Notes under the pieces: model-generated
What the model saw: only the letters and a program-made list of their open reading frames with translations
Database searches by the model: none
Told to the model about the DNA's origin: nothing
Part shown: positions 15,731-36,116 of the stretch, piece by piece
Numbering within the stretch: the first letter of the stretch is position 1
How the letters are laid out: each line of letters begins with the position of its first letter
Source of the DNA: Clostridia bacterium
GTDB lineage: Bacteria; Bacillota; Clostridia; Oscillospirales; Acutalibacteraceae
Length of the DNA stretch: 42,796 bases
Direction of reading: 5' to 3'
NCBI GenBank assembly: GCA_017554405.1
Contig: JAFZIK010000056.1
Span: 1 to 42,796, forward strand
Made by a program: the position numbers and the translations under genes

Positions 15731-16004
15731 AATCTGGCGAGAGTCGAACCCCCTACGGTTTGGCTCGCCGCCTTTATTCATCTTTCTTGCACTCATTTTT
15801 GAAAGGCGCCGGCCTTCCTGCAAATTCGTGCCGCGCCGACTGAAAAAATGCGGCGGCACAAACTTCTTTGAACTTAAAACGAGCAAAATTTCCATATCGT
15901 CGAAGCCGAAAAACGCAGGTATACTAACGTATTTCAAGTTTTGAGGCAAAGAAGGATGCAAATTTTGCCGTTTAAAGCGTGGCGGGTTCGACTCTCGCCA
16001 GATT
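15731..16004. mobile_element. 274-bp MITE-like element, copy 1, with tRNA T-arm-like inverted termini
   Basis: The left end AATCTGGCGAGAGTCGAAC is repeated as a perfect inverted copy at the right end (GTTCGACTCTCGCCAGATT, 15986-16004); the match extends to 21 bp. A second copy of exactly 274 bp lies at 27324-27597. The right end reads like a tRNA T-arm: a 5-bp stem around the 7-nt loop TTCGACT. No clear target duplication is visible. It sits inside the structural operon, 11 bp from the ATG of the giant gene. Each copy keeps one minus-strand frame open, but with scattered replacement differences between copies, so I do not call a gene. Confidence 0.75.
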
Positions 16005-16026
16005 AAGAAAAACTATGAGATAATGA

Positions 16027-17010
16027 TCAACTGAAACTCAGTGTAACTACCTGACTTGACATCTGCGCCCACGTTTCGGTAGTAACGTTTGCATTGTAGA
16101 ATTGAAGCTCGTAACGGCTTTCTATGTCGGAGTCCACCGGCAGGGTTATACTGTTGCCCGCCTGGCTTGCTCCGGTCACCGAAAGCAGCAGATCGCGGGA
16201 AACGTCGCTGAGCGTCACCTTGGTGCCGTCCCAGCTTACCGTAACCGTTCCCGTGCCGGCGCCGGTTATAAGGTAGTTGTATCCGTCATATAAGTTCGGT
16301 GCCGTAGCGGTATCGTCACGGAAAGCGCCGGACCAGTAATCCGTTGCGCCTTCGGCGCGCAGATCGGGCTTGAATATTGCACGTAAGGTCGGAAGAGCGA
16401 GGGTAGAAGGTTGTGCGATAACCTCAAGATAAAGATTAGGCTTGTTTGCGGCAAAGCCCGCGCTGAACGATATCGTAAAGGGATCCGATTCTGCGGTGTC
16501 GCCCGGAAGCGTGCCGTTAAACGTCCCCGAAAGGGTGGTATTGCCTAAAACCACCGTGGTAACGTCGTCGGTGACCGTTACCGTATACGCCGTAAGCGAC
16601 TGAGCCGAGATATAGGCGGCGTCAACGGCAACGTATCTGTCGGGATCGGATTCATCGTATTTCACAAGTCTTGCGGTCAGGGTGTATGAAATATTGTCCG
16701 GGTAGGGAAGGGTCTGGCGCCCCTGCTGATAGTTGCAAACTGTCGCTATCGCAAAGGTCGGCAACGCGGCGTTGGTCGTGTAAACGGTGCGCACGTTGTC
16801 CTTACTCTCGCCCTTGAGAAGGTAGTTTGAAGAAAAACGTTCGCCCTGCGTATCATAGGCGGCAATGGTGCGCTGCGCATTGAGCGTGCTTGTGAATATG
16901 GCATATGAGCTGGTGCAAAGGATAGCAAGAACGCAACACAAAGCCAGGGCCGCCCAAAGCAGCCTTATGCTGAATCCCTTTATGTGCTTGTTTCCCGGTG
17001 TTTTATCCAT
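16027..17010 (-). CDS. Exported protein with SipW-type N-terminus
   Basis: 327 residues from the ATG at 17010. An upstream in-frame start at 17121 would overlap the previous gene; the 17010 start has GGAG 8 nt before it. The N-terminus is KGFSIRLLWAALALCCVLAI (about 11-30), then TSSYAIFTSTLNAQRTIAAYD, the hydrophobic-core-then-(S/T)xYAxF pattern of SipW-dependent signal peptides, with the expected cut after the Ala. The mature part looks like all-beta Ig-like domains (TVTVSWDGTKVTLSDV) with no catalytic motif. In TasA/CalY-type systems such proteins are subunits or accessory proteins of extracellular fibres. It is third in the operon, 41 bp after the preceding gene and upstream of the 274-bp element and the giant gene. 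Confidence 0.8.
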   Translation of the reverse strand: MDKTPGNKHIKGFSIRLLWAALALCCVLAILCTSSYAIFTSTLNAQRTIAAYDTQGERFSSNYLLKGESKDNVRTVYTTNAALPTFAIATVCNYQQGRQTLPYPDNISYTLTARLVKYDESDPDRYVAVDAAYISAQSLTAYTVTVTDDVTTVVLGNTTLSGTFNGTLPGDTAESDPFTISFSAGFAANKPNLYLEVIAQPSTLALPTLRAIFKPDLRAEGATDYWSGAFRDDTATAPNLYDGYNYLITGAGTGTVTVSWDGTKVTLSDVSRDLLLSVTGASQAGNSITLPVDSDIESRYELQFYNANVTTETWAQMSSQVVTLSFS

Positions 17011-17051
17011 TCTGAACGCTCCGATATGTAATAACTGATTCTGAATACTCG

Positions 17052-17789
17052 TTAAAAAGCCTTGGCGGAAATGCATATAACGTCGGTCTCGCGGTCGTTT
17101 AACGCCTTGTCGTTTATCCATACGCGCAGTATGTAATAATTGATGAAATCGCCGCGCAAATATCCCGTTTCGTTGTTAGTGGTTTGCCAGTAAAGCGGTT
17201 CTACGTATTTATCAACGTTGCTGTATGCGCCGTAGGTATCCGAATGCAGGGTGCTGTCCGCCAACGTTTCACCGAGAACGGTCCGGTCGTTTAAAAAGCT
17301 TCCAGCGATCGCCGCTCCGGTAGGAGAATAATAGTAGGTCTGCGGGGTATCGGTATGCGTGATATAAGCGGTGGCTCCCTCGCTTGCCACCGTGCTTTCG
17401 GTAGCGTGGTATAAACTGTAGGAGAACTGGTTGTTGGTGGTGTAGGCAAGCTGCAGCTTATAGTTTTGGACCATTTTGCCGAATATGCAAAATACGTAAT
17501 CGTAATGGTCCGCATCCGCCGTAACGTCAATACCGTTGAAATAGAGATAGCGGATGTCCTCAAAGTGATCGTCTGTAAACTGATGGTTCACGTCGTCGAA
17601 TTCGCGGTGCCCCGCGCCTATAAAGAGCGATACCGGCGAGGCTACCGGCGCATAGGATATCAATCGTTTGCCTACGGCGAACCACGCATATACCGATGTT
17701 GCAAGAAGCACTATCGCCAAAAGCAGGGCATAACCGGCGGAAATAACGGCAAAAGTATTCTTTTTCGGTTTTTTGTTTTTTTCTTCCAT
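17052..17789 (-). CDS. Exported protein with SipW-type signal (YAWFAVG)
   Basis: 245 residues from the ATG at 17789. I choose this over the ATG at 17816 because the AGGGGGAG ribosome binding site lies 7-8 nt before 17789 and would fall inside the longer frame. After a short basic tail (EEKNKKPKKN) comes a membrane helix (about 12-33) ending ATSVYAWFAVGKR, close to the TSTYAWF of the main TasA-like protein at 31471. The mature part is rich in Tyr and Asp and has no recognised domain; the last residues (VICISAKAF) look like a terminal beta-strand. Probably a SipW substrate and minor subunit of the same surface structure. It follows the 18840 gene by ~95 bp and precedes the 17010 gene. Confidence 0.8.
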   Translation of the reverse strand: MEEKNKKPKKNTFAVISAGYALLLAIVLLATSVYAWFAVGKRLISYAPVASPVSLFIGAGHREFDDVNHQFTDDHFEDIRYLYFNGIDVTADADHYDYVFCIFGKMVQNYKLQLAYTTNNQFSYSLYHATESTVASEGATAYITHTDTPQTYYYSPTGAAIAGSFLNDRTVLGETLADSTLHSDTYGAYSNVDKYVEPLYWQTTNNETGYLRGDFINYYILRVWINDKALNDRETDVICISAKAF

Positions 17790-17883
17790 TTTTCCGCTCC
17801 CCCTTTCTTTCGGCATTTATTGATCCGGCGGGTTTAAACCCGGCTTAAGCGGATGAAATTCAAGTTAAAACGTTCAAAAAACG

Positions 17884-18840
17884 TTATTGTATAGGAGTGA
17901 TCGTAACCGTAATAAAATCGGCGTTTTCGCCTATTGCCTGGTCGCCGTCGTTATATTCGTCGTTAAGCACGTCAAGATCGTTGGTGTTCCTGATTGACGC
18001 GAAAAAGTATTCGCGGTTATCGTCAACGTAATCGGTAAGCTCCGGCGGATATCTGTCATCAAACGCGGCGGCGCCGGTCATATCGTAGATGTTTTGATAT
18101 AATACGGGCCATTCCCAGTAAAGCGTTATTTCATAACAGTCGGTCTTGCCCGGCTTTGTGCTTTTGGCGTGCTGCGAGGTATCATAGGTTAAAAGTCCGT
18201 CGGTTATAAGCCCGTTATACTTGTAATATTCCTGCGAAGCTCCGGTCCTTTCGGTAAAGAACAGTATGTGTCCCTTTAAAAGGTCCAGCGCCGTAGCGCT
18301 TGTCATTTCGTTCAGCACAAGAACGTCGTTTTCATATTCGTTAACGTAGCCCCCGATCGAAATGTCAAGATGTGCAACAACGTCCGAAACGCCGGACTTC
18401 GGTTTGAGATAAATGGTAAGAGTTCCGCAGGCGCCGGGGTTTAAATAGTAGTAGTCTACACCGTCTGACCTTGTCGCAACCTCGTTTACAAGCTCAAACG
18501 AGATTTCACTTGAGGTTTCGGTAGAGGTCGCCGTAAAGCTGTAACCGAGCGCGGCGACAGCGGCTTTAAATGTATCGATGCCGGGGTATTTATCATCGCC
18601 GCCCAAAAGGACCGTATCGTATTCCGTTCCCCGTTCGACAAGCAGGTCGTATGTATCGCTTTCTACGCCCACCTGCATATTTCTTCCGCCCACTCTTCTG
18701 TTTTGCGCGAACCAGCCGAGACTTGAATTCAAGGTAACAACGTAAAGAACGGCAAAAATGAGCGCAAGAAACAGCAGAGCAAGAATAACGGCTCTGCCGG
18801 TCACGCTTTTCTTATCCTGTTTTGCGTTGAAACTGTTCAT
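17884..18840 (-). CDS. Exported/membrane-anchored TasA-like protein, first gene of the structural operon
   Basis: 318 residues from the ATG at 18840; an ATG 7 codons earlier (18861) lacks a ribosome binding site, while GAAGGT precedes 18840. The N-terminus is basic (NAKQDKKSVTGR), then a helix (about 17-37) and LGWFAQNRRVGGRNMQVGVE. Compare YAWFSMSTEVSATGMQV in the 31471 protein: the WF-x6-7-V-x-x-x-MQV spacing is kept but the cleavage-site Ala is Gly, so processing may differ. The mature domain resembles TasA/camelysin-type beta proteins (YYYLNPGACGTLTIYLKP matches a typical core strand pair). It lies directly behind a near-perfect promoter and is probably well expressed. Confidence 0.8.
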   Translation of the reverse strand: MNSFNAKQDKKSVTGRAVILALLFLALIFAVLYVVTLNSSLGWFAQNRRVGGRNMQVGVESDTYDLLVERGTEYDTVLLGGDDKYPGIDTFKAAVAALGYSFTATSTETSSEISFELVNEVATRSDGVDYYYLNPGACGTLTIYLKPKSGVSDVVAHLDISIGGYVNEYENDVLVLNEMTSATALDLLKGHILFFTERTGASQEYYKYNGLITDGLLTYDTSQHAKSTKPGKTDCYEITLYWEWPVLYQNIYDMTGAAAFDDRYPPELTDYVDDNREYFFASIRNTNDLDVLNDEYNDGDQAIGENADFITVTITPIQ

Positions 18841-18881
18841 ACTTTTACCTTCGGTAGACATAGTGATTCATTATCCACTAT

Positions 18882-19037: not shown

Positions 19038-22016
19038 ATGTTTATAAAAAGCAGATACTCCGAAAAAATCAGGACGACAGCCGCGTTGCTCGTCGCTTCG
19101 GTTCTCTTTTTTGCTTCCGCTTTTGCGGCGGCGCCCCTGCGGGCGGAGAACGCCAAGATAGATTTTACCGGTCGCGGCATCGGTTACAGCACCGTAATAT
19201 ACGATAATGCCAACGGGCTTCCGACGTCCGATGCCAACTCGATCGTTCAAACGTCGGAAGGTTTTATCTGGATAGGCAGTTACAGCGGACTTATCCGTTA
19301 TGACGGAAATGAGTTTTACCGCTATGATTCCGCCACCGGCGTTTCAAGCGTTGTATCGCTTTTTGTTGATTCAAAGGACCGCTTGTGGATAGGCACTAAC
19401 GACAGCGGCGTTTTTATGCTTAAAAACGGCGTATTTACGTCCTATGACCGCAATCAGGGTCTTCGCTCCTCTTCGATACGTTCAATGGAGGAGGACAGCG
19501 CCGGCAATATACTTATTGCAACGACCCAGGGTATGGCATATATAGATACCGATCTTGTTATGCACTACATAGATGAGCCGCAGATAAACCGCGAGTATGT
19601 ATGCGAGCTGGTAAACGACGGGAAGGGGACCGTATACGGCGTTACCCTTTCGGGCGCGTTTTTTACCGTAAACGATCTTTCGCTTACCGCGTTTTACGGC
19701 GGGGATTCCTTCGGCTTCGGAACGATAAATACCGTTTACCCCGATCCGGTAAACGAGGGTTATATATACTTAGGCACCCAGAACGCAACGGTGGTCCACG
19801 GCAGACTTGAAGATCATATGAGCGGCGCCGAGGTAATGCGGGTAGACCCGCAGCTCAACGTTCGCTGTATCAGGTATATCGACGGGCTCTTGTGGGTCTG
19901 CGCCGATAACGGCATCGGCTTTTTAAGCGGCGATACCTACGTTGCATTAAACAGTTTGCCGATGAACAATTCGGTAGAGCATATGATATGCGATTTTGAG
20001 GGCAACCTCTGGTTTACCTCTTCAAGGCAGGGCATTATGAAGATAGTGCGCAACCGTTTTACCGATATTTCGGCGATGGCGGATCTGCCGGCTATGGTGG
20101 TAAACACGACCTTCTTTAAGGACGGGCTGCTTTATATCGGCACCGACCGCGGACTTGTTCTGCTCGATCGGAACTATTCACAGGTGAGTAACGGCATAAC
20201 GGCGATGCTTTCGAGCGCCCGTATAAGGTCGATACATTCGGATTCAAAGGATCGCCTCTGGTTTGGCACAAACAGCGATTACGGGCTTGTTTGCTATGAT
20301 CCGGTCACCGGGCAGATCGAATGCTACAATCATTCAAACGGTCTTGCCTCAAACCGCGCGCGAACGATGCTCGAGATGTCGGACGGCAGAATAGCCGTTG
20401 CCACCAATTCCGGCGTCAACTTTATCCAAAACGGCGTTGTTTCGGCGCTTTATAACGGCAATCAGGGGATAAGCAATCTTGAGATACTCTGCCTTGAGGA
20501 GGGTCCCTCCGGCGAGCTTTACGCCGGCAGCGACGGCGACGGGATCTACGTTATAAACAAGGGAAAGGTATCCCGTATCGGGCGTGAAAACGGGCTGAGG
20601 TCCGAGGTAATACTCCGTATGCGGCGGGATAGCGTGGATAAGGAACTTTACTGGATAATAACCAGCAATTCCATAGCGTATATGAAGGGCGACAGGGTAA
20701 CAAGCCTCAACGAATTCCCCTATGCCAACAACTTTGACCTTTGTTTTGATGATTTCGGCAGGGTATGGGTTTTAAGCAGTAACGGTATTTACGTTGTAAG
20801 CAGGGAAGCGCTGCTTTCCGGCAATAAGGTCGATTATATACTTTACGATACCAGCAGCGGTCTGCCATGTGCGGCAACCGCCAATTCCTACAGTTATCTT
20901 GAAAAGAGCGGAACGCTTTATATCGCCGCGTCTACCGGCGTCAGCTCGGTGGATATAAACGATACTACATACGAAAGTGAAACCATACGTCTTTCGGTGC
21001 CTTACCTTACGGCGGATAACGAGTATTTATTTGTTGAAAACGGGCAGGTAAAGGTTCCCGCGTCCTGCAAACGTCTTGTTATAAACGCCTATGCTTTCAG
21101 TTATTCTCTTAACAATCCGCATCTGCGGGTTTGTCTTGAGGGCTTCGACGATGCGCCGATAGCGCTTACTCAGCACGAGCTTTCGCCGCTTACCTATACC
21201 AATCTTCCGGGCGGAACGTATACCTTCCGCATTTCGGTCATAGACACGATGACCGGCCTTGAGACCGAAACTCTCACCGTGCGCATAATAAAGGAAAAAA
21301 GCATTACCGAGCATATTTGGTTCTGGGTGTTGCTGGTAGTCTTCGTAATGGTGCTCGCGGGCGCGGTCGTGTTCCTTATCGCAAGGCGCAAGACCATTGC
21401 GCTTGCCAAAAAGCAGAAGGAGCACGAAAAGCTCATCGATGAAATGACCAACGTTTTCGCAAACTGCATAGATATGAAGGATTCCTATACCAACGGCCAT
21501 TCCCACCGCGTGGCGAAGTATACCGCCATGCTTGCCGAAAAGCTCGGAAAAAGCCCCGAGGAAGTGGCGAAGATGCACCGCATAGCTCTGCTTCACGATA
21601 TAGGTAAAATAAGCATACCTGACAGTATCTTAAACAAACCGGGCAAGCTCACCGATGAGGAATACGCGGTGATGAAGAGCCATTCGAGCCGCGGCTATGA
21701 GATACTTAAGTCGATAAGCATAGCGCCCGAGCTTGCGGAGGGCGCCGGCTGCCATCACGAGCGGCAGGACGGTCACGGATACCCGAACGGTATCGAGAAG
21801 GAAAGCATACCCGAGGTGGCGCAGATAATCGCCGTTGCCGATACCTTCGATGCGATGTTCTCAACAAGACCTTACCGCAAACGTATGCCGCTTGAGGATA
21901 TCGTTGCCGAGCTGCGCCGCTGCTCCGGCACCCAGCTTAACGAAAAGGTGGTAAACGCGCTGCTCGAACTTATCGATGAAGGCGCCGTAAGCGAAGAGGA
22001 AAGTGAACAGAAATAA
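19038..22016 (+). CDS. Beta-propeller sensor (Reg_prop/Y_Y_Y) fused to HD-GYP phosphodiesterase
   Basis: 992 residues. Signal peptide/first helix about 10-33, then ~14 propeller blades (Reg_prop, about 45-650) with repeats such as EGFIWIGSYSGLIRYDG and KDRLWIGTNDSGVFML, a Y_Y_Y-type beta domain (about 665-745), a membrane helix (about 756-780), a short coiled coil and a cytoplasmic HD-GYP domain (about 795-985). The catalytic signature is complete: NGHSHRVAKY, LLHDIGKIS (HD near 853), a later HHERQDGHGYP. HD-GYP enzymes hydrolyse c-di-GMP. The propeller-Y_Y_Y sensor is the type found in hybrid two-component carbohydrate sensors of Bacteroidetes, here joined to HD-GYP instead of a histidine kinase. 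The likely logic is that an extracellular glycan or polymer signal alters c-di-GMP breakdown. The start has GGAGGTG 7 nt upstream. Divergent from the structural operon. Confidence 0.9.
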   Translation: MFIKSRYSEKIRTTAALLVASVLFFASAFAAAPLRAENAKIDFTGRGIGYSTVIYDNANGLPTSDANSIVQTSEGFIWIGSYSGLIRYDGNEFYRYDSATGVSSVVSLFVDSKDRLWIGTNDSGVFMLKNGVFTSYDRNQGLRSSSIRSMEEDSAGNILIATTQGMAYIDTDLVMHYIDEPQINREYVCELVNDGKGTVYGVTLSGAFFTVNDLSLTAFYGGDSFGFGTINTVYPDPVNEGYIYLGTQNATVVHGRLEDHMSGAEVMRVDPQLNVRCIRYIDGLLWVCADNGIGFLSGDTYVALNSLPMNNSVEHMICDFEGNLWFTSSRQGIMKIVRNRFTDISAMADLPAMVVNTTFFKDGLLYIGTDRGLVLLDRNYSQVSNGITAMLSSARIRSIHSDSKDRLWFGTNSDYGLVCYDPVTGQIECYNHSNGLASNRARTMLEMSDGRIAVATNSGVNFIQNGVVSALYNGNQGISNLEILCLEEGPSGELYAGSDGDGIYVINKGKVSRIGRENGLRSEVILRMRRDSVDKELYWIITSNSIAYMKGDRVTSLNEFPYANNFDLCFDDFGRVWVLSSNGIYVVSREALLSGNKVDYILYDTSSGLPCAATANSYSYLEKSGTLYIAASTGVSSVDINDTTYESETIRLSVPYLTADNEYLFVENGQVKVPASCKRLVINAYAFSYSLNNPHLRVCLEGFDDAPIALTQHELSPLTYTNLPGGTYTFRISVIDTMTGLETETLTVRIIKEKSITEHIWFWVLLVVFVMVLAGAVVFLIARRKTIALAKKQKEHEKLIDEMTNVFANCIDMKDSYTNGHSHRVAKYTAMLAEKLGKSPEEVAKMHRIALLHDIGKISIPDSILNKPGKLTDEEYAVMKSHSSRGYEILKSISIAPELAEGAGCHHERQDGHGYPNGIEKESIPEVAQIIAVADTFDAMFSTRPYRKRMPLEDIVAELRRCSGTQLNEKVVNALLELIDEGAVSEEESEQK

Positions 22017-22076: not shown

Positions 22077-24353
22077 TCAGTTCATAAACTTTCTTGTCAG
22101 GAAATCGTCGTAGTCTCCCTGAACAAGCGGTTTTGAATAGTAATAACCCTGAATGACGTTACAACCGAGTTTTTTGAGCATATCCATCTGATCTTTGGTT
22201 TCAACGCCCTCCTGGGTGACCTTCATGTTAAGTCCGCGTCCGAGCTGAATAACGCTTGAAAGCACCTTCAGGTCGCGCTCATCGGAGAAGCCGCGCATTA
22301 TAAAGAACCGGTCAAGCTTTATTTCATCCATCGGCAATTCCTTAAGGATGTTGTATGAGGAGAAGCCCGAGCCGAAGTCGTCTATAGAGCATTTGAATCC
22401 GTTTTTATGCAGGATGTTTACCGTTTCGCGCAGGCGCTCGTAATCTTCAAACGCCGAGCTTTCGGTAAATTCTATCATAATGAAGTTATCCGCGATGTTG
22501 TATTTGTTTTTGATCGCGGTATAGTAACTGAGGAAATCCGGCTCCGCCGCCGTTATACGCGAAACGTTTACCGATATCGGGTATAGCGTTTTGTGCTGAG
22601 CCACCGTTTCCGACATATATATGCAAACCTGCTCGTAAACGTATTTATCGAGCTTAACGATAAATCTGTTTTCCTCAAAGATAGGCAGGAACAGACCCGG
22701 CTGCATATATTCGTCTGTTTCGGGATTATACCAGCGCACCAGCGCTTCGCATCCGTCGGGGCGGTTGCCCTCGATGTTGTATTTCGGCTGATAGAACACC
22801 CTGAACAGCTTGTTTTCAAGGGCGCTCTGCATGTTAACTTCGATGTATTCCGTCATTTCGGTGCTGGAATGCAGTCGCTCGTTATATATCCTGAACGCCT
22901 CAAAATCATAAGGATACTTGGTGGCGTTTTCGGCGATTATCGCCTGATCCAACATCTTCTCCGCCGAGATATCCGAACTGTATACGCTAAGTGACATACC
23001 GCCGTATGCCGAAAGGGTTATACGCTCGCCTGAATTGGTAATCTTAACTATACCCAAAACGGTTGAAAGCATTTTGATTCTTTGCCCGAGCGCCTCTTTG
23101 TCGCGGTAGTGAAGAAGTAAAACGAATCTTCCGTTTTCCGCGTAACCGAAGGTCTCCTCGACCTGCAGGAACCGGGTGTAAAAGTCCCTCATGCGCTTGA
23201 GCTCGTTTATCATCTGTTCCTCGCCCATATGCTCGGTCATATAATCGAAATGGCGTATATCAACGACCGTAACGGCAAAGCTCGAGTTTTTGTTTCTCGC
23301 CATTATTTCGTTGGCTACTTTTTCAAATTTAACCACCGTCGGGCAGTCGAGCAGTTCGTTGCGTTCTCTTAAGTTCTTTATCCGTCTTTCGCTCAAACGG
23401 AAATTAACTATAAAGTAACCGGCAACGAAAATAAGCAAAGCAAAGGATAAAGCGAGTATTCCGAGCAACGTTGTAAAGGTCGAATACGCCGCGTTGTAAA
23501 GATCGCTGGCGCGGTAGATCGAGAACACCGAAAAATGCGAGCTTCCGTATTCTCTGATGCCGCTTACCGCAAGGATGGTCTCGTGTCCGTTTGCCGATAC
23601 CGTGTATGCCTTTGAACGTCCTTCGGTAACCGTTGTCTGAACGTCGTCTATCGTGGATTTATCGTTTATCGTCTTGCGCAGGAACTCGTATATGTTGTTA
23701 TGAAGCGATATATCAAGATCGCTGTTTTCAAGTATGGATACGATCTCGCCCTCGCTCGTGCATATAGCGGTAAGGCGGGATTTGGTATCGCTGTTTTCGG
23801 GCGCCTTAACTTCATCAATGATACCGGTGTGGTAGAAGAGCACGAGGCAGTCGGCATAAGGGCAACCCTTGAGCGGTATGCAGAAGGCGACCATACTGAT
23901 ACTGTTGACCCTGTCTTCAACAATACCCACGCAAACCGAAACCTCCATTTTGGAGCCGACTATTACCTTTTTTGATTCGTATTCGGTATTGAACGGTGTG
24001 CCGCTGGGCAGATATTCTTCGCCGCCCTTGAAATAACGGGCAAACTTAATGCCTTTTCCTTCTTCTCTTATAATGCGGCTGAGGTTTATCGAAAAATCCT
24101 CTTCGTTTTGCATTCCTGTGGCAAGAAGGTCCTTGGCAAGATTCTCGGATCTTTGCTTGTATCCTTCGATAACCGAACTGAAGTTTTCAGCCATTTCATC
24201 CGAATTGTGTATTGCTATGCTTCCGGCGCCGTTATGTAACTTTTGCGTATAGTCTGCAAAAATGAACACGCTTGCACCGATAAGGAGGATGCTTGCAACG
24301 CATACAACAATCATTATTATGTTGTTAATTTTCTTGCTTGATGCCTTTGCCAC
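22077..24353 (-). CDS. Membrane sensor with degenerate GGDEF and intact EAL (c-di-GMP phosphodiesterase)
   Basis: About 758 residues from the GTG at 24353; a GTG three codons earlier (24362) is possible, but AGGTG lies 6 nt before 24353. Two membrane helices (about 10-32 and 290-312) enclose a ~260-residue extracellular Cache-like sensor. The GGDEF domain is degenerate: the signature position reads YAENGRFVLL, so no cyclase activity is expected. The EAL domain keeps the key motifs: EALVRW (E536), NVSR, EFTES, DDFGSG, KLDRFF, QEGVE and QGYYYSKP. It should hydrolyse c-di-GMP to pGpG, with the GGDEF part perhaps a GTP or interaction module. It follows the small coiled-coil gene by 46 bp and is probably the last gene of the DUF2357/SipW operon. 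Confidence 0.9.
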   Translation of the reverse strand: MAKASSKKINNIIMIVVCVASILLIGASVFIFADYTQKLHNGAGSIAIHNSDEMAENFSSVIEGYKQRSENLAKDLLATGMQNEEDFSINLSRIIREEGKGIKFARYFKGGEEYLPSGTPFNTEYESKKVIVGSKMEVSVCVGIVEDRVNSISMVAFCIPLKGCPYADCLVLFYHTGIIDEVKAPENSDTKSRLTAICTSEGEIVSILENSDLDISLHNNIYEFLRKTINDKSTIDDVQTTVTEGRSKAYTVSANGHETILAVSGIREYGSSHFSVFSIYRASDLYNAAYSTFTTLLGILALSFALLIFVAGYFIVNFRLSERRIKNLRERNELLDCPTVVKFEKVANEIMARNKNSSFAVTVVDIRHFDYMTEHMGEEQMINELKRMRDFYTRFLQVEETFGYAENGRFVLLLHYRDKEALGQRIKMLSTVLGIVKITNSGERITLSAYGGMSLSVYSSDISAEKMLDQAIIAENATKYPYDFEAFRIYNERLHSSTEMTEYIEVNMQSALENKLFRVFYQPKYNIEGNRPDGCEALVRWYNPETDEYMQPGLFLPIFEENRFIVKLDKYVYEQVCIYMSETVAQHKTLYPISVNVSRITAAEPDFLSYYTAIKNKYNIADNFIMIEFTESSAFEDYERLRETVNILHKNGFKCSIDDFGSGFSSYNILKELPMDEIKLDRFFIMRGFSDERDLKVLSSVIQLGRGLNMKVTQEGVETKDQMDMLKKLGCNVIQGYYYSKPLVQGDYDDFLTRKFMN

Positions 24354-24399
24354 AGCGAACACCTACCTTTGAAACGGCCAAATGTGATCGTCCTGAAAA

Positions 24400-27022: not shown

Positions 27023-27313
27023 ATTTTTTACAAACAAGTCTATATACTCACACACACCGCGAAAATTGCGGTCAATATCGGAATTGCAAATACGCAAAAC
27101 CTTCAGATTCATATTCTGTAATTCTTTTGTGCGGGAATTATCTCTTTCTATTTGTTCGCTTGAAAAATGTCCCGAACCGTCAAGTTCGATCACCAATCTT
27201 GCCTTTGCACAATAAAAATCAGCAATATAATTCCCGATCGACTTTTGACGCTGAAAACGCAGCGGATAATCTCTTAAAAACTCATACCACAGTTTTCTTT
27301 CCCACGGCGTCAT
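26999..27313 (-). CDS. DUF559 (Vsr-like endonuclease fold) protein
   Basis: 104 residues with the DUF559 pattern: TPWERKLWYEFLRDYPLRF, RQKSIGNYIADFYC, KARLVIELDGSGHF, RDNSRTKEL, LKVLRICNSDI. The fold belongs to the Vsr/PD-(D/E)xK group, with the candidate metal site in IADFYC and IELDGS. Its function in small stand-alone proteins is not established. The ATG at 27313 is 10 nt after the right end of the 274-bp element; a GGG lies in between. The C-terminal LSLSQLR and stop come from the REP-like repeat. It is squeezed between repeats, which suggests it travels with them and was inserted between the AAA+ and DUF2357 genes. Confidence 0.8.
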   Translation of the reverse strand: MTPWERKLWYEFLRDYPLRFQRQKSIGNYIADFYCAKARLVIELDGSGHFSSEQIERDNSRTKELQNMNLKVLRICNSDIDRNFRGVCEYIDLFVKNLSLSQLR

Positions 27314-27718: not shown

Positions 27719-27753
27719 TCTGACATCTGACATCTGTCATCTGATATCTGATC
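27719..27753. repeat. Heptad array B (five 7-bp units)
   Basis: TCTGACA, TCTGACA, TCTGTCA, TCTGATA, TCTGATC. The third unit forms the dyad TGACA-TC-TGTCA with the second. The last unit overlaps the stop codon of the AAA+ gene at 27752. Confidence 0.6.
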
Positions 27754-29329: not shown

Positions 29330-29372
29330 ATCAAAGTTCTCCTGCAATAAATATTCTGATAAATGCCGTTTT

Positions 29373-29472: not shown

Positions 29473-30381
29473 TTATTCGCCTTCGGGCGCTTCATCCGCC
29501 GGGGCTTCCTCCTCGGCAGCGGCTTCTTCGGCGGGAGCCTCTTCGGTCTCCTCTTCGGCAGCGGCTTCTTCGGTCGCTTCTTCAGCAGGTGCTTCTGCCT
29601 CTTCTGCGGTGGCTTCCTCTTCGGTCACTTCTTCGGTAACCGCCTCTTCTGCAGGGGCTTCCTCGGTCTTCTCCGCCGGGGCTTCCGCAGCGGATTCTTC
29701 GGCAACGTTGCCCGCCTGAGAGCGGCGGTATTCCTCGATCGCCTGCTGGCGGATGAGTTCTGCTTCATCCGCGCTTAAGGGGGCTTTTGCGCCGTATTTC
29801 ATCTCAAAGAACTTGCGAAGGAATATAATGAGCTCATAGATGAAGAATGCGATAAGCGGAAGAACTATCACAAAAAGGAAATTCTGCTTTACCTGTAAAA
29901 AGCTGAGCACCGAACCGAGCTTTTTGATACGGGTGCCGGTATACTTTGATATTACCATGCTCGGCAAAACGTCATAAGAATCCTTGAATTCGTTGTTATC
30001 GCCCTGCGTTTTATAAGATACTACGTTATTTGAGTTCCCGGCTCTTGTCACCGCAATGATCTTATGGGTGTTGAATTCCTCAACGTTATCGCCGTCAAGA
30101 TCGACCCTGAAGCCGATGATATCGCCGACCTGAAGATTCCGGGCATCCTCCTCGGTCACCTTCTGACCGATTATAAGATCGCCCTTATAAAAGGTCGGCT
30201 CCATTGAATCCGATTGCACCGACCAGATGATCTTACCGCCGATGGCGGGCGCTTCGGGATCGCTGGATTTTGCGGCAAACGCAAGCACGGTGATGATGAT
30301 CGCGAAGATCAAAAACAGCCAGATGATAACGTTACCGATCACAGTAAATACTTTTTTAACAGACGTATTACCTTTTCCCAT
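29473..30381 (-). CDS. SipW-like signal peptidase I with long acidic C-terminal tail
   Basis: 302 residues from the ATG at 30381, chosen for GGAAGG 8 nt upstream; the longer in-frame start at 30489 has no support and would cover the promoter. Helix about 10-36, Ser in QSDSMEPTF (S59), His in FNTHKIIAV (H106), box E TQGDNNEFKD (D128, D134): a complete Ser-His SipW-type active site. A second helix (about 165-190) returns the chain to the cytoplasm, where a basic stretch leads to an ~80-residue low-complexity tail of Glu, Ala and Pro. It should cleave the SipW-type precursors in this window, such as the TSTYAWF protein encoded just upstream. The tail has no counterpart in Bacillus SipW and may bind a cytoplasmic partner. 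Confidence 0.9.
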   Translation of the reverse strand: MGKGNTSVKKVFTVIGNVIIWLFLIFAIIITVLAFAAKSSDPEAPAIGGKIIWSVQSDSMEPTFYKGDLIIGQKVTEEDARNLQVGDIIGFRVDLDGDNVEEFNTHKIIAVTRAGNSNNVVSYKTQGDNNEFKDSYDVLPSMVISKYTGTRIKKLGSVLSFLQVKQNFLFVIVLPLIAFFIYELIIFLRKFFEMKYGAKAPLSADEAELIRQQAIEEYRRSQAGNVAEESAAEAPAEKTEEAPAEEAVTEEVTEEEATAEEAEAPAEEATEEAAAEEETEEAPAEEAAAEEEAPADEAPEGE

Positions 30382-30436
30382 TTTTAAAACCTTCCAATTC
30401 CGTTTTTTTTGCAAATAAAGGCAACAATACAAGGTA

Positions 30437-30465
30437 ACTATAATACAAAACGGCGATAATGTCAA
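30437..30465 (-). promoter_or_regulatory. Sigma-A promoter of the SipW-like gene
   Basis: TTGACA (30465-30460), 17 nt, TATAGT (30442-30437), ~50 nt before the start at 30381. Confidence 0.8.
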
Positions 30466-30571
30466 GAAAAAATAACCAAAATATCGCATTTTGCAGTTTT
30501 CAGGCGACCCGAACGGTAAGGGAAGGTAAGCTCAAAAATATGTTATAAATTTGTTTTAAAATCAACACACC

Positions 30572-30757: not shown

Positions 30758-31471
30758 TTAGGTATGATCACTTACAAAAGCCTGGAGATTGAAGGTAACC
30801 TGACCGGTAAGAGCAGCAGCGTTATCGGTGTAAACGTTGGGGTCGTCGCCGTTGAAGTAAATGTAAACCTTGATTTCCTGAGCTGTTTGTGTAACAGTGT
30901 TAGAAAGAACGTCGGCAGCGGCATAAGCTATGTCGGAAGCGGAAGCGCTGAACTCTTTGTAGCCGTTAGCACCTGCGATAACAACGGTGATACCCTTGTT
31001 AGCCGGAATTGTGATATCGGAAACGATAAGGTCATAACCGGTATCAGCAGAATTCGCACGCAATTTTACCCAGTAAGAAGTTTCAGCAACATAGCCGGTG
31101 AAAGAACTGATATAATTCTTAGCTGTCATAGCGTTAGTTGCGTTATCGCTGTTACCGTTGTAACGATAATACCAGTTGTCGTTGGTGCTGTCGCTGTTAA
31201 GGTCGAATTCTTCGATGTCAGCTAAAGCGGACCATGCTTCATGATGTGCAGGATAGAGCTCTGCATCAAGACTCTGAGCCGCAGTAATGTCATAAGTGCC
31301 GGCAGAAGCATTGCTGATCTCAAGGAAGATCGCATCTGATACAGCGGTAACTTGCATACCTGTAGCAGATACTTCAGTGCTCATTGAGAACCATGCGTAG
31401 GTCGATGTGCCAAGAAGAATGGCAGAAACCAGAAGCATAGCCAATGCAGGAATAAGTTTCTTCATTTTCAT
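30758..31471 (-). CDS. TasA-like fibre subunit candidate with canonical SipW-type signal
   Basis: 237 residues from the ATG at 31471; AAAGGAGAG lies 9 nt before it, the best ribosome binding site in the locus. The longer frame to 31537 is not supported. Signal: MKMKKLIPALAMLLVSAILL (1-20), then GTSTYAWFSMSTEVSATGMQV, the classic SipW/TasA-type cut region (after TYA). The mature ~205 residues look beta-rich with Ala/Thr/Asp/Asn, one YRYNG segment and a C-terminal AALTGQVTFNLQAFVSD strand. There are no cysteines and no anchor. It is the simplest and probably most abundant candidate for the polymerising subunit. It is 79 bp after the 32282 gene and is followed by four stem-loops and the gene for its presumed peptidase. 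Confidence 0.85.
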   Translation of the reverse strand: MKMKKLIPALAMLLVSAILLGTSTYAWFSMSTEVSATGMQVTAVSDAIFLEISNASAGTYDITAAQSLDAELYPAHHEAWSALADIEEFDLNSDSTNDNWYYRYNGNSDNATNAMTAKNYISSFTGYVAETSYWVKLRANSADTGYDLIVSDITIPANKGITVVIAGANGYKEFSASASDIAYAAADVLSNTVTQTAQEIKVYIYFNGDDPNVYTDNAAALTGQVTFNLQAFVSDHT

Positions 31472-31550
31472 TTTGGTTTTCTCTCCTTTGATTAAGAAAA
31501 ATTGTTTTATCTTGAATCTGCCGACCGCCATCGGCAAATATCAATACGTA

Positions 31551-32282
31551 TTAAGTTTGCTCGCTGTTGCTCTCTTCGGAGTCAACCGAGATCCGCATAT
31601 CTATTTTAAATATGCCGCCGATTATCTTATCAACGCAATCGGGATCGTCGCCCTCAAGCCAGATAACTACCGTGAACTTGGTTTTATCGCCGGGTCTGAA
31701 ATGCCGGATCGTCTTTTTAACGATGGTGTTACCGCTCTGGAACGCCGTTGTTCCGGGCTCGGGACCGTTTACGCCGTCTGTCCTCGCATGGGCGTAATCG
31801 GTGTATTCACCGTCCACATACAGCCGCACACGCACCGCCTTTTCGACCTCGTAGGTCATATTCGTTATATATAGGTCGTATGTGTATGTAACTGTTTTTT
31901 TGCCGCCGTTGGTGCAGTAAAAGGTGTAAGCAATGTAGTTTTCGCCGTTGTGCTCGCCGTCAACGTTATCCACCCAGTCGGGTATCGAACTGCCGGAGAT
32001 GTTGGTTATCGATTCTGCGATCTCGGCGTTAAGCCGGGAAGAGAAGTAGTCGAAGCTCGGGCTTTCGGATAAGGTGAGCGCGTATTTGTTGCTGTCAAAC
32101 TTGTTTACCATAACGGTAAACGCGCCGTATTTGGTATAAAGAAAGGCAACTATGTAACCGATTATCAGAAGTATTACCGAAATGGTTATGCATATCGGTA
32201 GAAGGCGCATCCATCTGCGGTAGGTCTTTACCTCGCTGGCTGTCCGTCTGATACTGACGCCTACTCTGTTTTCCTTCGCCAT
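31551..32282 (-). CDS. TasA-like membrane or exported protein
   Basis: 243 residues. Basic N-terminus (about 1-25, TASEVKTYRRWMR), membrane helix (about 28-50), then LYTKYGAFTVMVNKFDSNKYAL, a variant of the TSTYAxF region with Gly in place of the second-last residue. The mature part has TasA/CalY-like beta segments (IAYTFYCTNGGKKTVTYTYD, EKAVRVRLYVDGEYT, RPGDKTKFTVVIWLEGDDPD). It may be a base or anchor subunit. Its ATG overlaps the stop of the EAL-like gene by one base (TGATG), with GAGGTGG upstream, so translation is coupled and expression depends on the c-di-GMP riboswitch. Confidence 0.8.
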   Translation of the reverse strand: MAKENRVGVSIRRTASEVKTYRRWMRLLPICITISVILLIIGYIVAFLYTKYGAFTVMVNKFDSNKYALTLSESPSFDYFSSRLNAEIAESITNISGSSIPDWVDNVDGEHNGENYIAYTFYCTNGGKKTVTYTYDLYITNMTYEVEKAVRVRLYVDGEYTDYAHARTDGVNGPEPGTTAFQSGNTIVKKTIRHFRPGDKTKFTVVIWLEGDDPDCVDKIIGGIFKIDMRISVDSEESNSEQT

Positions 32283-33157
32283 CAGTATTCCACCTCATCT
32301 TTCTGGGCAACCGCTTCTTCAAGGGGCATACGCAAACGCCCGTGGGTAACGCCGCCGCTGTAATTTGAGGAGGGGATATATCCGAAACAACCTGCTCTTG
32401 AAAGTGCCGTTATCTGATCGTCTGAAACAACGCCGTCGGCAATTATCTCGGCGGGCAGACCTTTCAAGAAGGCTATAAGCGCCGCCGCCGTGACCGATTT
32501 TTCGCGGCTCGCCGAAAGCGAGGTGATAAAGGGGGATAAAAGCAGATAGTCAAACGGAAGGTTTACAAGCGGGGTTATCGGTGAATCCTTTTCACCGCAG
32601 CCGCTCATCATGGTTTTAACCTTAAGCAGCTTCATACTGAGTATCGCCATGCGCGCCTTTTCTTCATCCTCAAAAAGGACCGTTCGCGGAAACTCAAGGC
32701 AAAGCTTATCGGGGAAATTGAAGCCGTATTGATCGAGTATCGCTTTTATCGCGCCGTAAAAATCCGTTTCAAGCACCATACGGGGCGGTATCCGGACCGA
32801 TACGAATTCGAACTTTCTGCCGGCGAGAATGAACTGTTCTATTGCCTTCATCGCCGATTTGATGTTGTAGCTCGCAAGGCGAACGCCGACCTCGGTCTCA
32901 TCCGATGCGTAGGAATATTTTTCGGGGGAAACGACCCCTTCAACAACGCTGTTTACGTATGTATACGAGCGGTAGGCAACGGGGAGCTTTTCGTAGCAGG
33001 AGTTTATCTGCGAGTATCTTGTTTCAAGCGGAGCTATGCCCGAATCAAGCGTCATCTTGATAAATCTTGCGTCGGCTTCGCCATCCGGCAGGGTCTGCTC
33101 GTTCTGGATCTCGGCTTCCGCCGTTTCAGGTGCGGAAACGTTATTCTCGATATCCAT
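32282..33157 (-). CDS. Degenerate EAL-domain protein, possible c-di-GMP receptor
   Basis: 291 residues from the ATG at 33157 (AAAGGAGC 6 nt upstream; the frame to 33202 would cover the riboswitch terminator). An acidic N-terminus (~45 residues) precedes an EAL-like fold. The landmarks align but catalytic residues are gone: the EAL strand is not recognisable, LCLEFPRTVL stands for the usual ELTES strand, SGCGEKDS for DDFGTG, FDYLLLSPFI for the D/K strand, and EIIADGVVSDDQITALSRAG then GCFGYIPSSNYSGG for the ETxEQ...QGYYFSKP end. No phosphodiesterase activity is expected; such domains may bind c-di-GMP or proteins. First gene behind the riboswitch and coupled to the TasA-like gene, so a link between second messenger and fibre assembly is plausible. 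Confidence 0.75.
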   Translation of the reverse strand: MDIENNVSAPETAEAEIQNEQTLPDGEADARFIKMTLDSGIAPLETRYSQINSCYEKLPVAYRSYTYVNSVVEGVVSPEKYSYASDETEVGVRLASYNIKSAMKAIEQFILAGRKFEFVSVRIPPRMVLETDFYGAIKAILDQYGFNFPDKLCLEFPRTVLFEDEEKARMAILSMKLLKVKTMMSGCGEKDSPITPLVNLPFDYLLLSPFITSLSASREKSVTAAALIAFLKGLPAEIIADGVVSDDQITALSRAGCFGYIPSSNYSGGVTHGRLRMPLEEAVAQKDEVEY

Positions 33158-33181
33158 AACATAGCTCCTTTCGCCGGGAAA

Positions 33182-33216
33182 TAAAAAAGCAACGCAAATC
33201 AAAACGATTTCGTTGC
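33182..33216 (-). terminator. Intrinsic terminator of the c-di-GMP riboswitch
   Basis: Minus strand GCAACGAAATC, loop, GATTTGCGTTGC, then TTTTTTAT. The left arm overlaps the 3' end of the aptamer (CCAGTTGCAACG), so aptamer closure and terminator compete. If closure uses those bases, ligand would favour read-through. The polarity is not proven by inspection. Confidence 0.8.
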
Positions 33217-33290
33217 AACTGGCTGCCCAACCGTGGGCCCTATAGTTTTGCGCCGCCGTCTTTCAACGGGTTTGCCAAACATATCAAATT
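33205..33290 (-). promoter_or_regulatory. Cyclic di-GMP-I (GEMM) riboswitch aptamer
   Basis: Read on the minus strand, the leader has the GEMM-I landmarks in order: GGCAAACC, the P2 hairpin CCGT-TGAAAG-ACGG with GAAA loop, GCGCAAAAC, the P3 region with TATAGGGCCCACGG, and GGGCAGCCAG followed by the closing strand. It lies between a promoter and an intrinsic terminator, directly upstream of the degenerate EAL gene and the TasA-like genes. It should sense c-di-GMP and control their transcription. Confidence 0.85.
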
Positions 33291-33301
33291 TTTCCATTAA
33301 C

Positions 33302-33330: not shown

Positions 33331-33412
33331 GACTTTTTTTAAAAAAATTTTTGCGAAAAAATAAAAAAAACCCGGAAAAACGGGTGAAAAACGAAAATTC
33401 TGTCGGTTTTCC

Positions 33413-33441
33413 TTGCTTTTGCCGTGTATATATGGTATCAT
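33413..33441 (+). promoter_or_regulatory. Promoter of the diguanylate cyclase gene
   Basis: TTGCTT, 17 nt, TATCAT, ~32 nt before the start at 33473. Divergent from the riboswitch promoter; a small CCCG/CGGG hairpin (33371-33384) lies between them. Confidence 0.6.
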
Positions 33442-33472
33442 ACCAATATATATTAATTTCTTGGGGTGTATT

Positions 33473-34855
33473 ATGGTTAAAAACAAGGCGAATACCGTTG
33501 AGGCTGATAAGTCCAATGCAGGGTTTAGGCTTGAAATATTCAATTTCTTCATTGTTCTTTTTACGGTTGTTATAACCGTTGCGCTCTGTTCGGTTATTTT
33601 TATGTCGCATAAGACCTATAACGCGTTTTATGATGCTACCGAGCAATATATCGTATGCAGGCAGTCGGCGGAAAACGTTCACGAGGCGTCCGATTATCTT
33701 ACCCGGGAGGTCCGCGCTTTTGCCGAAGAGGGTAAGCTTGAGCATATGAACAATTATTTTAACGAGGCAAATACCGCAAAGCGCAGGGAGAATTCGATCG
33801 CGACTATAAAGAAATATGATTCGGATAATACCAAAAACGGGTATCTTGAAAAAGCGAAAGACTTTTCGTTCGAGCTTATGTCGATCGAGTATTATTCGAT
33901 GCGCCTTGTTCTGGAAGCCGATGGCGTGCCGGAGGAAAAGTATCCCGACGTTATAAAGCATACCGCGCTTAAAGATGCGGATAAACAGCTTTCAAACGAG
34001 GAAAAAAGAAGCCTCGCAAAGGAAATACTTTACGATTCGGAATACGTGCGCTATAAGGATGAGATATATAAGAATATAACGCTCTACACCGAAGATATAC
34101 TTTCCGGAACCCGCGAACGCGAGCATGATAATTCCGTAAAATTCACACATTATCAGAGCGCCCAGATAGTTCTGATAATAGTTCTGCTCGGTATACTGAT
34201 GGTAAACGTTGCGTTTACCTCTATATTCCTTATACGCCCCCTCAGGAAGAATTCAAAACTTATCGTGGAGCAAAACTCGCTGCCGGTAAAGGGACCGGAA
34301 GAAATGCGCACCTTTGCCAAGCTTTATAATAACGCGCTTGAAAAGATAAAATCTCATCAGGAGGAGTTATCCTACGAAGCTTCGCACGATTCGCTTACCG
34401 GCATTCGTAACCGCAGCGTTTTTGATGAGATGTATCGCACGGTCAATTCGACCGAGGACGTATCGCTTGCGCTCATTGATATAGACGATTTCAAGGGCAT
34501 CAACGATAAATACGGGCATGAGGCGGGGGACGCCGCGCTTAAAAAGGTCGCCTCGCTTCTGCGCTCATCCTTCCGCCCGGGCGATATTATGTGCCGCATA
34601 GGCGGGGATGAGTTTGCCGTTATCACAAACGGCGTTACGCCCGATTACCGCGATCAGCTGGAGGAAAAATTCTCCGCGATTGCGGCAAAGCTTAAAAAAG
34701 CAGGTGATTCCGTGCCGGCATTCTCGATCAGCGTAGGGGCATCCTTCGGCGATCCGCTGCTTTCTTTCAAGGAGCTTTATAAAAACACCGACAGGGCGCT
34801 TTACTCAGTAAAAGAGACAACCAAGGACGGATTAAAGTTTTTCAGAGACCTTTGA
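33473..34855 (+). CDS. Membrane sensor diguanylate cyclase with I-site
   Basis: 460 residues from the ATG at 33473 (GGGGTG 4 nt upstream); the frame to 33413 would start inside the promoter. Helix about 20-43, a ~190-residue helical extracellular sensor, a second helix (about 228-250), a short linker and the GGDEF domain. DSLTGIRNRSVFDEM opens the domain; the active site is RIGGDEFAV (near 375-383). An RPGD inhibitory site stands exactly five residues before GGDEF, so product inhibition is expected. It makes c-di-GMP from two GTP. Its position, divergent from the riboswitch operon, makes it a plausible local source of the signal. Confidence 0.9.
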   Translation: MVKNKANTVEADKSNAGFRLEIFNFFIVLFTVVITVALCSVIFMSHKTYNAFYDATEQYIVCRQSAENVHEASDYLTREVRAFAEEGKLEHMNNYFNEANTAKRRENSIATIKKYDSDNTKNGYLEKAKDFSFELMSIEYYSMRLVLEADGVPEEKYPDVIKHTALKDADKQLSNEEKRSLAKEILYDSEYVRYKDEIYKNITLYTEDILSGTREREHDNSVKFTHYQSAQIVLIIVLLGILMVNVAFTSIFLIRPLRKNSKLIVEQNSLPVKGPEEMRTFAKLYNNALEKIKSHQEELSYEASHDSLTGIRNRSVFDEMYRTVNSTEDVSLALIDIDDFKGINDKYGHEAGDAALKKVASLLRSSFRPGDIMCRIGGDEFAVITNGVTPDYRDQLEEKFSAIAAKLKKAGDSVPAFSISVGASFGDPLLSFKELYKNTDRALYSVKETTKDGLKFFRDL

Positions 34856-34892
34856 TACCGACTTGCAAACGGTAAGTATTACACTATGGATA

Positions 34893-34931
34893 AAAAACTC
34901 GCGGCAGCCGCTCGGCTGCCGCGTGATTTTT
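34893..34931. terminator. Bidirectional terminator between the two cyclase genes
   Basis: An 11-bp stem CGCGGCAGCCG / CGGCTGCCGCG with AAAAAA on one side and TTTTTTT on the other, between convergent stops. Confidence 0.9.
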
Positions 34932-34940
34932 TTGTCTTTA

Positions 34941-36116
34941 TTATTTACGGTTGGCTCTGTAATGGCCCTGTTTATCGTCATACATCTTACGGTCCGCTTC
35001 CTTAAGATACGCGGTAACCGAATGCTTCGGGTCGTCACAAACGATATAACCCACCGCAAGTGATAAAACGTAAGGCCGTTTCTCGGAAACGCACTCGGCG
35101 GCAACGCGGTGGCGGATATCGTTGATGACCATTTCGGGATCGAAATCGCCGCCCTTTACCGGGCGCCAGCCCCAAACGAATTCATCGCCGCCGTAACGCG
35201 CCGCAAATCCGTTATAGGCGGTAGCGCTCTTTTTTACCGCCTCGGCAAAAATGATAAGGGCGCGGTCGCCTTCGGCGTGACCGTAGCTGTCGTTAATACC
35301 TTTAAACCCGTTTATATCGCCCATAAACAGGTAAAACGGCATATCGGATGAATTGTTGCTTATCTCGTTGCCGAGATAAACCTCGGCTCTCCGGCGGTTG
35401 TTCATACCGGTAAGGGTATCGGTATAAATGTTTGCCTGCTGGTAGGAAATGAACGTGTGCAGAATAACGCCGAATATTGCCAGCGGCAGAACGGTGGTGT
35501 TACTGAACCGGTCGTCAAAAATCGCCCAGCCGGTCAGGAACAGGCAAACGAGGACCGCGGTCGCGGCTTCGCGCTTTGCCGAAATGTTTGAACGGGTGTT
35601 TTTTGCCGTATGCAGATACATTCTTCCGATCACGAAAAGATACACGAACGCAAGAGCGAGAACTAAAATATAAAGCTTGCCTTTTATCATATGGCCATTC
35701 GCGTCCAAGCTGAAAACAGCACCGTTGAAAAGCGATACCGAAAGCATCACAAGCGCCGTAAGGAAGGGGATAAGCCCTAATATGAGCGCGCGAATATTTG
35801 ATTTGAACCCACGGTCAAGATGGACTATCATCAGCATATAGAACGCAAACGCATTTATGATCGCAAATAAGAGCGAGCAGAAGCAAACGGCGGAAAACGC
35901 CTCATCCGGGATTATCACGAGATCAAACTCCCGAAGCGTTCTGAATGTTTCAAGCAGAAGGTATATCTGGAAAACAACTATTAACAATTTAAAGCAGCGG
36001 TATTCAAGAGCTTTCATCGTATCGGGAGTTATGCGCAGAAAAATATAACCGGAGAAAATGAGCAGGAAAACGTTGGATATGATATACATATCCACGAAAG
36101 ATGCGATCTCGCTCAT
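34941..36116 (-). CDS. Multi-helix membrane diguanylate cyclase without I-site
   Basis: 391 residues. Seven or so hydrophobic segments over about 1-225 form an integral membrane sensor with short loops, followed by TDTLTGMNNRRRAEVYL and the GGDEF domain with RYGGDEFVWGW (309-313). The position where an RxxD inhibitory site would lie (five residues upstream) reads AYNG, so feedback inhibition is unlikely, unlike the neighbouring cyclase. Start ATG with a strong GGGAGGCGG six nt upstream. Monocistronic: own promoter and the shared terminator at 34893. Confidence 0.9.
   Translation of the reverse strand: MSEIASFVDMYIISNVFLLIFSGYIFLRITPDTMKALEYRCFKLLIVVFQIYLLLETFRTLREFDLVIIPDEAFSAVCFCSLLFAIINAFAFYMLMIVHLDRGFKSNIRALILGLIPFLTALVMLSVSLFNGAVFSLDANGHMIKGKLYILVLALAFVYLFVIGRMYLHTAKNTRSNISAKREAATAVLVCLFLTGWAIFDDRFSNTTVLPLAIFGVILHTFISYQQANIYTDTLTGMNNRRRAEVYLGNEISNNSSDMPFYLFMGDINGFKGINDSYGHAEGDRALIIFAEAVKKSATAYNGFAARYGGDEFVWGWRPVKGGDFDPEMVINDIRHRVAAECVSEKRPYVLSLAVGYIVCDDPKHSVTAYLKEADRKMYDDKQGHYRANRK

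Follow-up and report, generated by a model that had tools for sequence, protein, structure and literature searches.

Cyclic di-GMP (c-di-GMP) riboswitches control surface structures in Clostridioides difficile, and the TasA/TapA/SipW system of Bacillus subtilis is a familiar fibre system that includes a SipW signal peptidase. A comparable arrangement in Clostridium perfringens is the sipW-bsaABCRSD operon with its two-component system, where sipW is needed for extracellular BsaA and its polymers; the term "AAA" does not occur in that text (PMC7395162). One paragraph of Bell et al. 2024 (eLife, PMC11090510) names CoCoPALM, in which signal peptidases accompany McrB-like GTPases that carry a fused FtsB-like transmembrane/coiled-coil domain, and the accessible text places these systems among relatives of Type IV restriction. 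Here we describe a locus within 42,796 nucleotides of a Clostridia bacterium assembly (GCA_017554405.1, contig JAFZIK010000056.1; 1.67 Mb in 71 contigs), the whole stretch being called the window. The locus encodes a membrane-anchored McrB-like AAA+ nucleoside triphosphatase (NTPase) and a DUF2357 protein among SipW-type peptidases, presumed fibre subunits and c-di-GMP enzymes; "Sip" for the peptidases and "Tas" for their presumed substrates are working names coined in this analysis. An original prediction, made from the sequence alone, had taken an ATPase pair in such a locus to be undescribed, which the CoCoPALM paragraph contradicts; a literature search on the pair, covering titles and abstract starts of the matches listed, showed nothing beyond Bell et al. 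2024 and its preprint. We propose, with a probability of roughly 0.6, that the AAA+ protein is a membrane NTPase which derives from McrBC and is devoted, instead of to restriction, to the SipW-dependent export or assembly of fibres.

Sequence searches of the Protein Data Bank (PDB) with the AAA+ protein matched McrB only (6hz4; E of 9.7e-5 for the single sequence at E<=1, and 4.6e-6 for the profile at E<=0.01), and a Pfam scan indicated no additional domain in the window protein. An N-terminal hydrophobic segment was present in 118/118 full-length members of the AAA+ class, as was the motif NNDDST, which fits the NxD plus D/E pattern and has a spacing that also fits NxxD; two members cut by contig ends were excluded from this set. 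The ATG at 29329 is where the alignment of most relatives begins and is thus the probable translation start. The DUF2357 protein matched no nuclease family in Pfam at E<=0.1, and no nuclease family appeared among the 25 listed of the 27 families that matched 27 aligned DUF2357 proteins. PF09823 was matched by the window protein and by 18 of those 27. We conclude that the window encodes a membrane McrB-type NTPase, which may use ATP or GTP, and a DUF2357 protein with no nuclease domain detected, in line with the prediction, and that the locus shares three features with CoCoPALM: a McrB-like AAA+ motif, a DUF2357 partner and signal peptidase association.

We sampled 394 genomes from the order of the source and found the AAA+ protein in 50. 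By our reading of the match table, 36 of these carry the class of about 525 amino acids including its N-terminal part, and 14 carry other relatives only. Fifty-one regions were retrieved and labelled with profiles that had been made from the proteins of the window. All 40 loci of the 525-residue class (39 plus the window) had a SipW gene no more than 10 kb away on the same strand, and none was found in the 6.7 to 20 kb examined around 12 more distant AAA+ genes (seven of a tandem class of about 450 residues, four of a large class, and L073). Named genomes were scanned as well and gave at least 571 AAA+ relatives; the best 80, a selection that favours close relatives, had SipW in 80/80 loci, DUF2357 in 78/80, tas-labelled genes in 67/80 and the degenerate EAL gene (dEAL) in 49/80; in the two loci lacking DUF2357 (L094 and L146) the stretch stops just past the AAA+ gene. 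Together the 80 named and 40 other loci make 120 rows with 108 distinct AAA+ proteins, twelve loci being in both sets, and SipW was within 10 kb on the same strand in every row. At the genome level, SipW was present in 36/36 genomes with this AAA+ versus 130/358 without (Fisher 2.6e-15), as scored with a SipW profile that, like the Tas2 profile, derives from AAA+-linked loci and may miss divergent copies elsewhere. The AAA+ therefore implies SipW and not the reverse, and the pair was not seen scattered without SipW for this class.

Both window peptidases exceed the TIGR02228 cut-off of 51.85 bits in NCBIfam and carry Ser/His dyad motifs, in line with the two Ser-His SipW-like enzymes predicted; they score below the cut-off of the equivalog model for Bacillus SipW. 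The Ser and His were invariant in 23/23 aligned proteins, and the closest PDB relatives of the SipW-type peptidases were SEC11A/C. Moreover, DUF2357 is fused to a SipW-type domain that keeps the Ser and His motifs in 18 loci, giving proteins of 973-1,053 amino acids with the peptidase at the C terminus. Sixteen of these records are titled Ruminococcus (for example R. albus 8, L107; R. albus KH2T6, L105; R. flavefaciens Y1, L145) and two Oscillospiraceae. The fusion was confirmed by Pfam S26 in L107 and by TIGR02228 scores above cut-off in 4/4 proteins tested, and all 18 may go back to a single fusion event. In a scan of 128 DUF2357 proteins the peptidase profile matched 19; the one outside the fusion set (L038, E 0.0003) has neither an S nor an H motif and was set aside as a chance match to a charged tail. 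Tas2, in turn, was found in 32/36 genomes with the AAA+ versus 2/358 others, and both exceptions are remnants that lack the AAA+. Tas2 is a diagnostic partner of the AAA+ and possibly the fibre base. The fusions and the AAA+-linked Tas2 point to direct coupling of the ATPase pair to the fibre locus, and with the co-occurrence they indicate that the pair belongs to it in gut and rumen clostridia and strengthen the functional guess of the original prediction.

The nature of the substrates is best indicated by Tas1. Its AlphaFold2 model (predicted local distance difference test score of 74) matched mainly pilus subunits at moderate scores, including the TasA fibre 8aur, and on that model Tas1 is likely a pilin and the presumed main fibre subunit. 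Five TasA-like substrates had been predicted for the window; membrane topology, the SipW-type context and the one predicted fold support them, and a sequence-level match to TasA was missing.

The predicted c-di-GMP riboswitch scored above the gathering threshold of RF01051 and is the sole c-di-GMP-I match at E<=0.01 in the source assembly. RF01051 occurred in 20/38 AAA+ genomes with 50 matches in total, of which 25, in 13 genomes, lay on the same strand no more than 20 kb upstream of the AAA+ gene, where 0.28 were expected by area; a binomial value overstates this clustering, as the matches are related and often in tandem. The other 25 matches were located elsewhere. A mechanical search found a hairpin followed by a T-run near the aptamer 3′ end in 22 of the 25 upstream copies, with the 5′ arm beginning within the final 14 aptamer bases in 18 (by one base only in L045) and outside it in four. 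The search found nothing in the remaining three, one of them the window copy, where a terminator-like hairpin with a bulge was recognised by eye, starting inside the aptamer and continuing directly 3′ (GCAACGAAATC-GTTTT-GATTTGCGTTGC-TTTTTT). Because the terminator-like hairpin shares the aptamer 3′ end, ligand binding should hinder termination, and c-di-GMP probably switches expression on, as judged from sequence. In four loci (L175, L176, L178 and L179) several c-di-GMP-I riboswitches were present, one of them just 5′ of sipA in L175 and L176, which suggests separate control of transcription units. The first gene of the operon encodes dEAL, which was scored, like the GGDEF-EAL protein, against eight positions that we take to be the EAL signature. 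No more than four of the eight were kept in any of 72 aligned dEAL rows, bearing out the predicted degeneracy; with the catalytic signature lost, dEAL would be a scaffold or sensor, not an enzyme.

These elements suggest a model in which a McrB-like AAA+ protein and DUF2357 stem from a restriction-type motor and now work for a surface-fibre system that depends on SipW. The c-di-GMP made by the local cyclases would probably turn the operon on through antitermination at the riboswitch, opposed by the local EAL and HD-GYP enzymes. SipA and SipB would release beta-sandwich subunits, with Tas1 as presumed main subunit and Tas2 as presumed membrane base, and the subunits would assemble outside the cell, where donor-strand exchange of the kind seen in TasA fibres would probably link them. 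Beneath the membrane, DUF2357 would engage a AAA+ ring in the way that McrC engages McrB, and the ring could dock on the conserved tails that Tas2 and SipA have in the cytosol and, via DUF2357, on SipB. The role of the ring would be mechanical, nucleoside triphosphate (NTP) being used to gate or drive subunit processing or insertion at the fibre base. A bolder version, which we put forward tentatively and consider doubtful as a whole, is a restriction-type motor turned into a c-di-GMP-switched secretion motor: a McrB-like hexamer on a DUF2357 stalk tied to a SipW peptidase (covalently in many Ruminococcus), each NTP cycle presenting, cleaving or ratcheting one donor-strand subunit into a fibre on a Tas2 base. 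If true, this would provide a cytosolic engine for a class of fibres thought to assemble without one.

Several observations weigh against a dedicated fibre NTPase, including the origin of the profiles given above. TasA and camelysin models gave no sequence match to the five window Tas proteins or to 17 Tas1-type proteins, and the structural matches of Tas1 all have Z <8, many being entries of one protein, FimA. No c-di-GMP-I match was found in 18/38 AAA+ genomes and a riboswitch near the AAA+ gene in just 13/38, so that clustering supports the predicted c-di-GMP control in a part of the genomes examined. A branch that parts the SipW-linked AAA+ proteins from all others was present in 30% of bootstrap trees, and these proteins may not form a single clade. 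Finally, the AAA+ is missing from 130 of the 166 genomes that carry SipW; since SipW-BsaA fibres also form without one, going by the accessible text on that system, the AAA+ may be accessory.

That last point bears on a regulatory or quality-control role, in which the membrane AAA+ would extract unprocessed Tas precursors or switch SipB activity and be dispensable for fibre building. Consistent with such a role, most SipW-bearing genomes manage without the AAA+, and one genome (G401) has intact-looking SipA, Tas1 and Tas2 without AAA+ or DUF2357. The DUF2357-SipW fusion would also suit it, and cytosolic contacts are suggested by the conserved Tas2 tail and by a SipA tail pattern present in 55/74 loci. 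The conserved core, however, holds no recognised protease besides the peptidases, and the near-exclusive pairing of the AAA+ with Tas2 suggests a structural role. We consider the regulatory explanation unlikely.

Alternatively, the pair could sense infection, through nucleic acid or the envelope, with membrane or surface proteins as effectors and the fibre genes as part of an anti-phage response. The family background is that of defence: besides the McrB matches and the placement among Type IV restriction relatives by Bell et al. 2024 (PMC11090510, in its accessible text), the AAA+ protein matches the PADLOC defence candidate PDC-M26A (E 1.3e-36), a further point against our reading. The window also carries a DUF559 nuclease-type gene, absent from the gene list of the original prediction, between the AAA+ and DUF2357 genes; however, the gap that holds it is 1,026 bp, wider than in any other of the 117 loci compared (median, 43 bp), and for that reason the gene looks like an insertion, probably a mobile one. 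Moreover, the DUF2357 proteins lack a nuclease family within the scope given above, their fusion partner is a peptidase and not a nuclease, and the recognised neighbours of the pair, counting labelled genes only, are secretion and c-di-GMP genes. We therefore regard a defence function as improbable. That a mobile cassette merely carries two functionally unlinked modules is most improbable: the distribution is patchy (36/394 genomes of the order), but gene order is conserved across different families with the short median spacing noted above, and 18 DUF2357-SipW fusions exist. We conclude that a fibre-dedicated NTPase is the preferred explanation.

Relatives of the AAA+ protein outside the SipW-linked class occur in other settings, and the tree leaves the order of descent among the classes unsettled. 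The tandem class (L074-L080) has the order AAA+-DUF2357-AAA+, again with N-terminal hydrophobic segments. Its loci encode transglutaminase-core proteins in 3/3 tested (L074, L076 and L078), with MBG domains above cut-off in L078, and the membrane segments together with the transglutaminase-core proteins suggest that the pair likely has another use at the cell surface. The large relatives L081-L084 had no SipW gene in the stretches examined; in L081-L083 the AAA+ has a NRDES motif and membrane segments, and the DUF2357 partner ends in a zinc-ribbon-like sequence (CPHCGK in L081 and L082, CPRCGK in L083).

The main genes of the original prediction were recovered at or near the positions it gave (Table 1), and each of its two GGDEF cyclases and its EAL and HD-GYP phosphodiesterases has a Pfam match. 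Its separate coiled-coil protein corresponded to no open reading frame when the frames were inspected without a coiled-coil predictor. On the minus strand, an operon-like row 3′ of the riboswitch runs dEAL, Tas2, Tas1, SipA, AAA+, DUF2357, SipB and the GGDEF-EAL protein, with overlaps of one base between dEAL and Tas2 and four bases between DUF2357 and SipB. Beyond it lie the HD-GYP gene on the plus strand, Tas3, Tas4, Tas5 and the giant gene. The giant protein had no Pfam match at E<=0.1 and contains 16 GLUG-like motifs, compared with a mean of 1.0 (maximum of 6) in 500 shuffles, by a pattern defined after viewing the sequence. An open reading frame of at least 900 amino acids, unlabelled or tas-labelled, was present on the same strand in 39/117 loci. 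Many Ruminococcus-type loci encode a membrane protein of about 150 amino acids 3′ of DUF2357 or SipB (L107:14581-15033), for which Pfam gave nothing above cut-off. Around the DUF559 gene, a short sequence is repeated, QLPRQREP occurring twice in translation. Sigma-70-like sites matching 11/12 positions were found on the minus strand at 30465-30437, 5′ of the likely sipA start, and at 18910-18882, 5′ of Tas3; promoter-like site counts across the window were at chance level.

Table 1. Features of the locus in window coordinates, with the evidence for each.
Feature	Position	Strand	Evidence
Giant GLUG-like repeat protein, presumably secreted	5829..15719	-	3,296 aa; N-terminal hydrophobic segment; repeat motifs
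Tas5, presumed SipW substrate, SSYAIF	16027..17121	-	Sequence; hydrophobic segment
Tas4, presumed SipW substrate, SVYAWF	17052..17816	-	Sequence; hydrophobic segment
Tas3, membrane-anchored presumed SipW substrate	17884..18861	-	Hydrophobic segment; own profile
Propeller-HD-GYP phosphodiesterase	19038..22016	+	Pfam HD_5 2.2e-35, Reg_prop; HHE..DGHGYP in sequence
GGDEF (weak)-EAL protein, likely phosphodiesterase	22077..24362	-	Pfam EAL 2.2e-58, GGDEF 0.0075; EAL signature present
SipB, second Ser/His SipW-type peptidase	24627..25286	-	TIGR02228 62.6 bits; TNSMEP...NTHK
DUF2357 (McrC-N-like) protein; tail charged, proline-rich	25283..26725	-	Pfam E 2.3e-9
DUF559 nuclease-type gene, outside conserved operon	26999..27313	-	Pfam DUF559 2.9e-23
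Membrane-anchored McrB-like AAA+ NTPase (CoCoPALM McrB homologue), likely ATG at 29329	27752..29347	-	McrB matches; PADLOC PDC-M26A; alignment; N-terminal hydrophobic segments; NNDDST
SipA, Ser/His SipW-type signal peptidase, likely ATG at 30381	29473..30489	-	TIGR02228 83.5 bits; SDSMEP...NTHK
Tas1, presumed SipW-processed fibre subunit, STYAWFS motif, likely ATG at 31471	30758..31537	-	Sequence; AlphaFold2 model
Tas2, conserved cytosolic tail RRTASEVK, one transmembrane helix, predicted beta-sandwich ectodomain	31551..32282	-	Alignment; model; co-occurrence
dEAL, degenerate EAL protein, first gene of operon, likely ATG at 33157	32282..33202	-	Pfam EAL 7.7e-18
c-di-GMP-I (GEMM-I) riboswitch aptamer	33211..33286	-	Rfam RF01051, 48.6 bits (gathering 35)
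GGDEF diguanylate cyclase, GGDEF motif present	33413..34855	+	Pfam 2e-33
GGDEF diguanylate cyclase, GGDEF motif present	34941..36116	-	Pfam 6.8e-27

Named carriers of the AAA+ include cultured rumen bacteria (Ruminococcus albus 8, R. flavefaciens, Eubacterium ruminantium and E. uniforme), organisms that live by attaching to surfaces, and the locus points to predicted, uncharacterised surface fibres in them. If our reading is true, McrBC-type NTPases do work besides restriction. The DUF2357-peptidase fusion, the Tas2 partner, the likely pilin Tas1 and the c-di-GMP switch would turn a one-paragraph observation on CoCoPALM into a testable machine.

Compared with known systems, the locus resembles TasA/TapA/SipW and, as far as its accessible description goes, SipW-BsaA in placing a SipW-type peptidase beside membrane-targeted, beta-rich secreted proteins with a fibre role, here presumed; it differs in that no TasA sequence match was found for the window proteins. 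The pair resembles McrBC Type IV restriction of E. coli (PDB 6hz4, 6ut6) in its AAA+ domain and DUF2357 partner, and differs in being membrane-anchored, in having no DNA-binding or nuclease domain found, and in its secretion-gene neighbourhood. The likeness to PADLOC PDC-M26A lies in the AAA+ domain, and the large relatives L081-L084, with no SipW gene in the stretches examined, may be its counterparts. As in C. difficile, c-di-GMP would control surface structures; here, in contrast, the riboswitch precedes a dEAL-Tas2-Tas1-SipW-AAA+-DUF2357 operon. The closest likeness is to CoCoPALM as described in the accessible text: a McrB-like NTPase with an N-terminal transmembrane region, a DUF2357 partner, adjacent signal peptidases and, in some DUF2357 relatives, tails that match coiled-coil families, the window's own tail being proline-rich. 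Section 7 of Bell et al. 2024 (PMC11090510) does not mention a SipW type, substrates, Tas2, c-di-GMP control or a peptidase fusion. We conclude that the substrate set, the fusion, the Tas2 partner and the c-di-GMP control are, as far as our searches show, new detail on this system.

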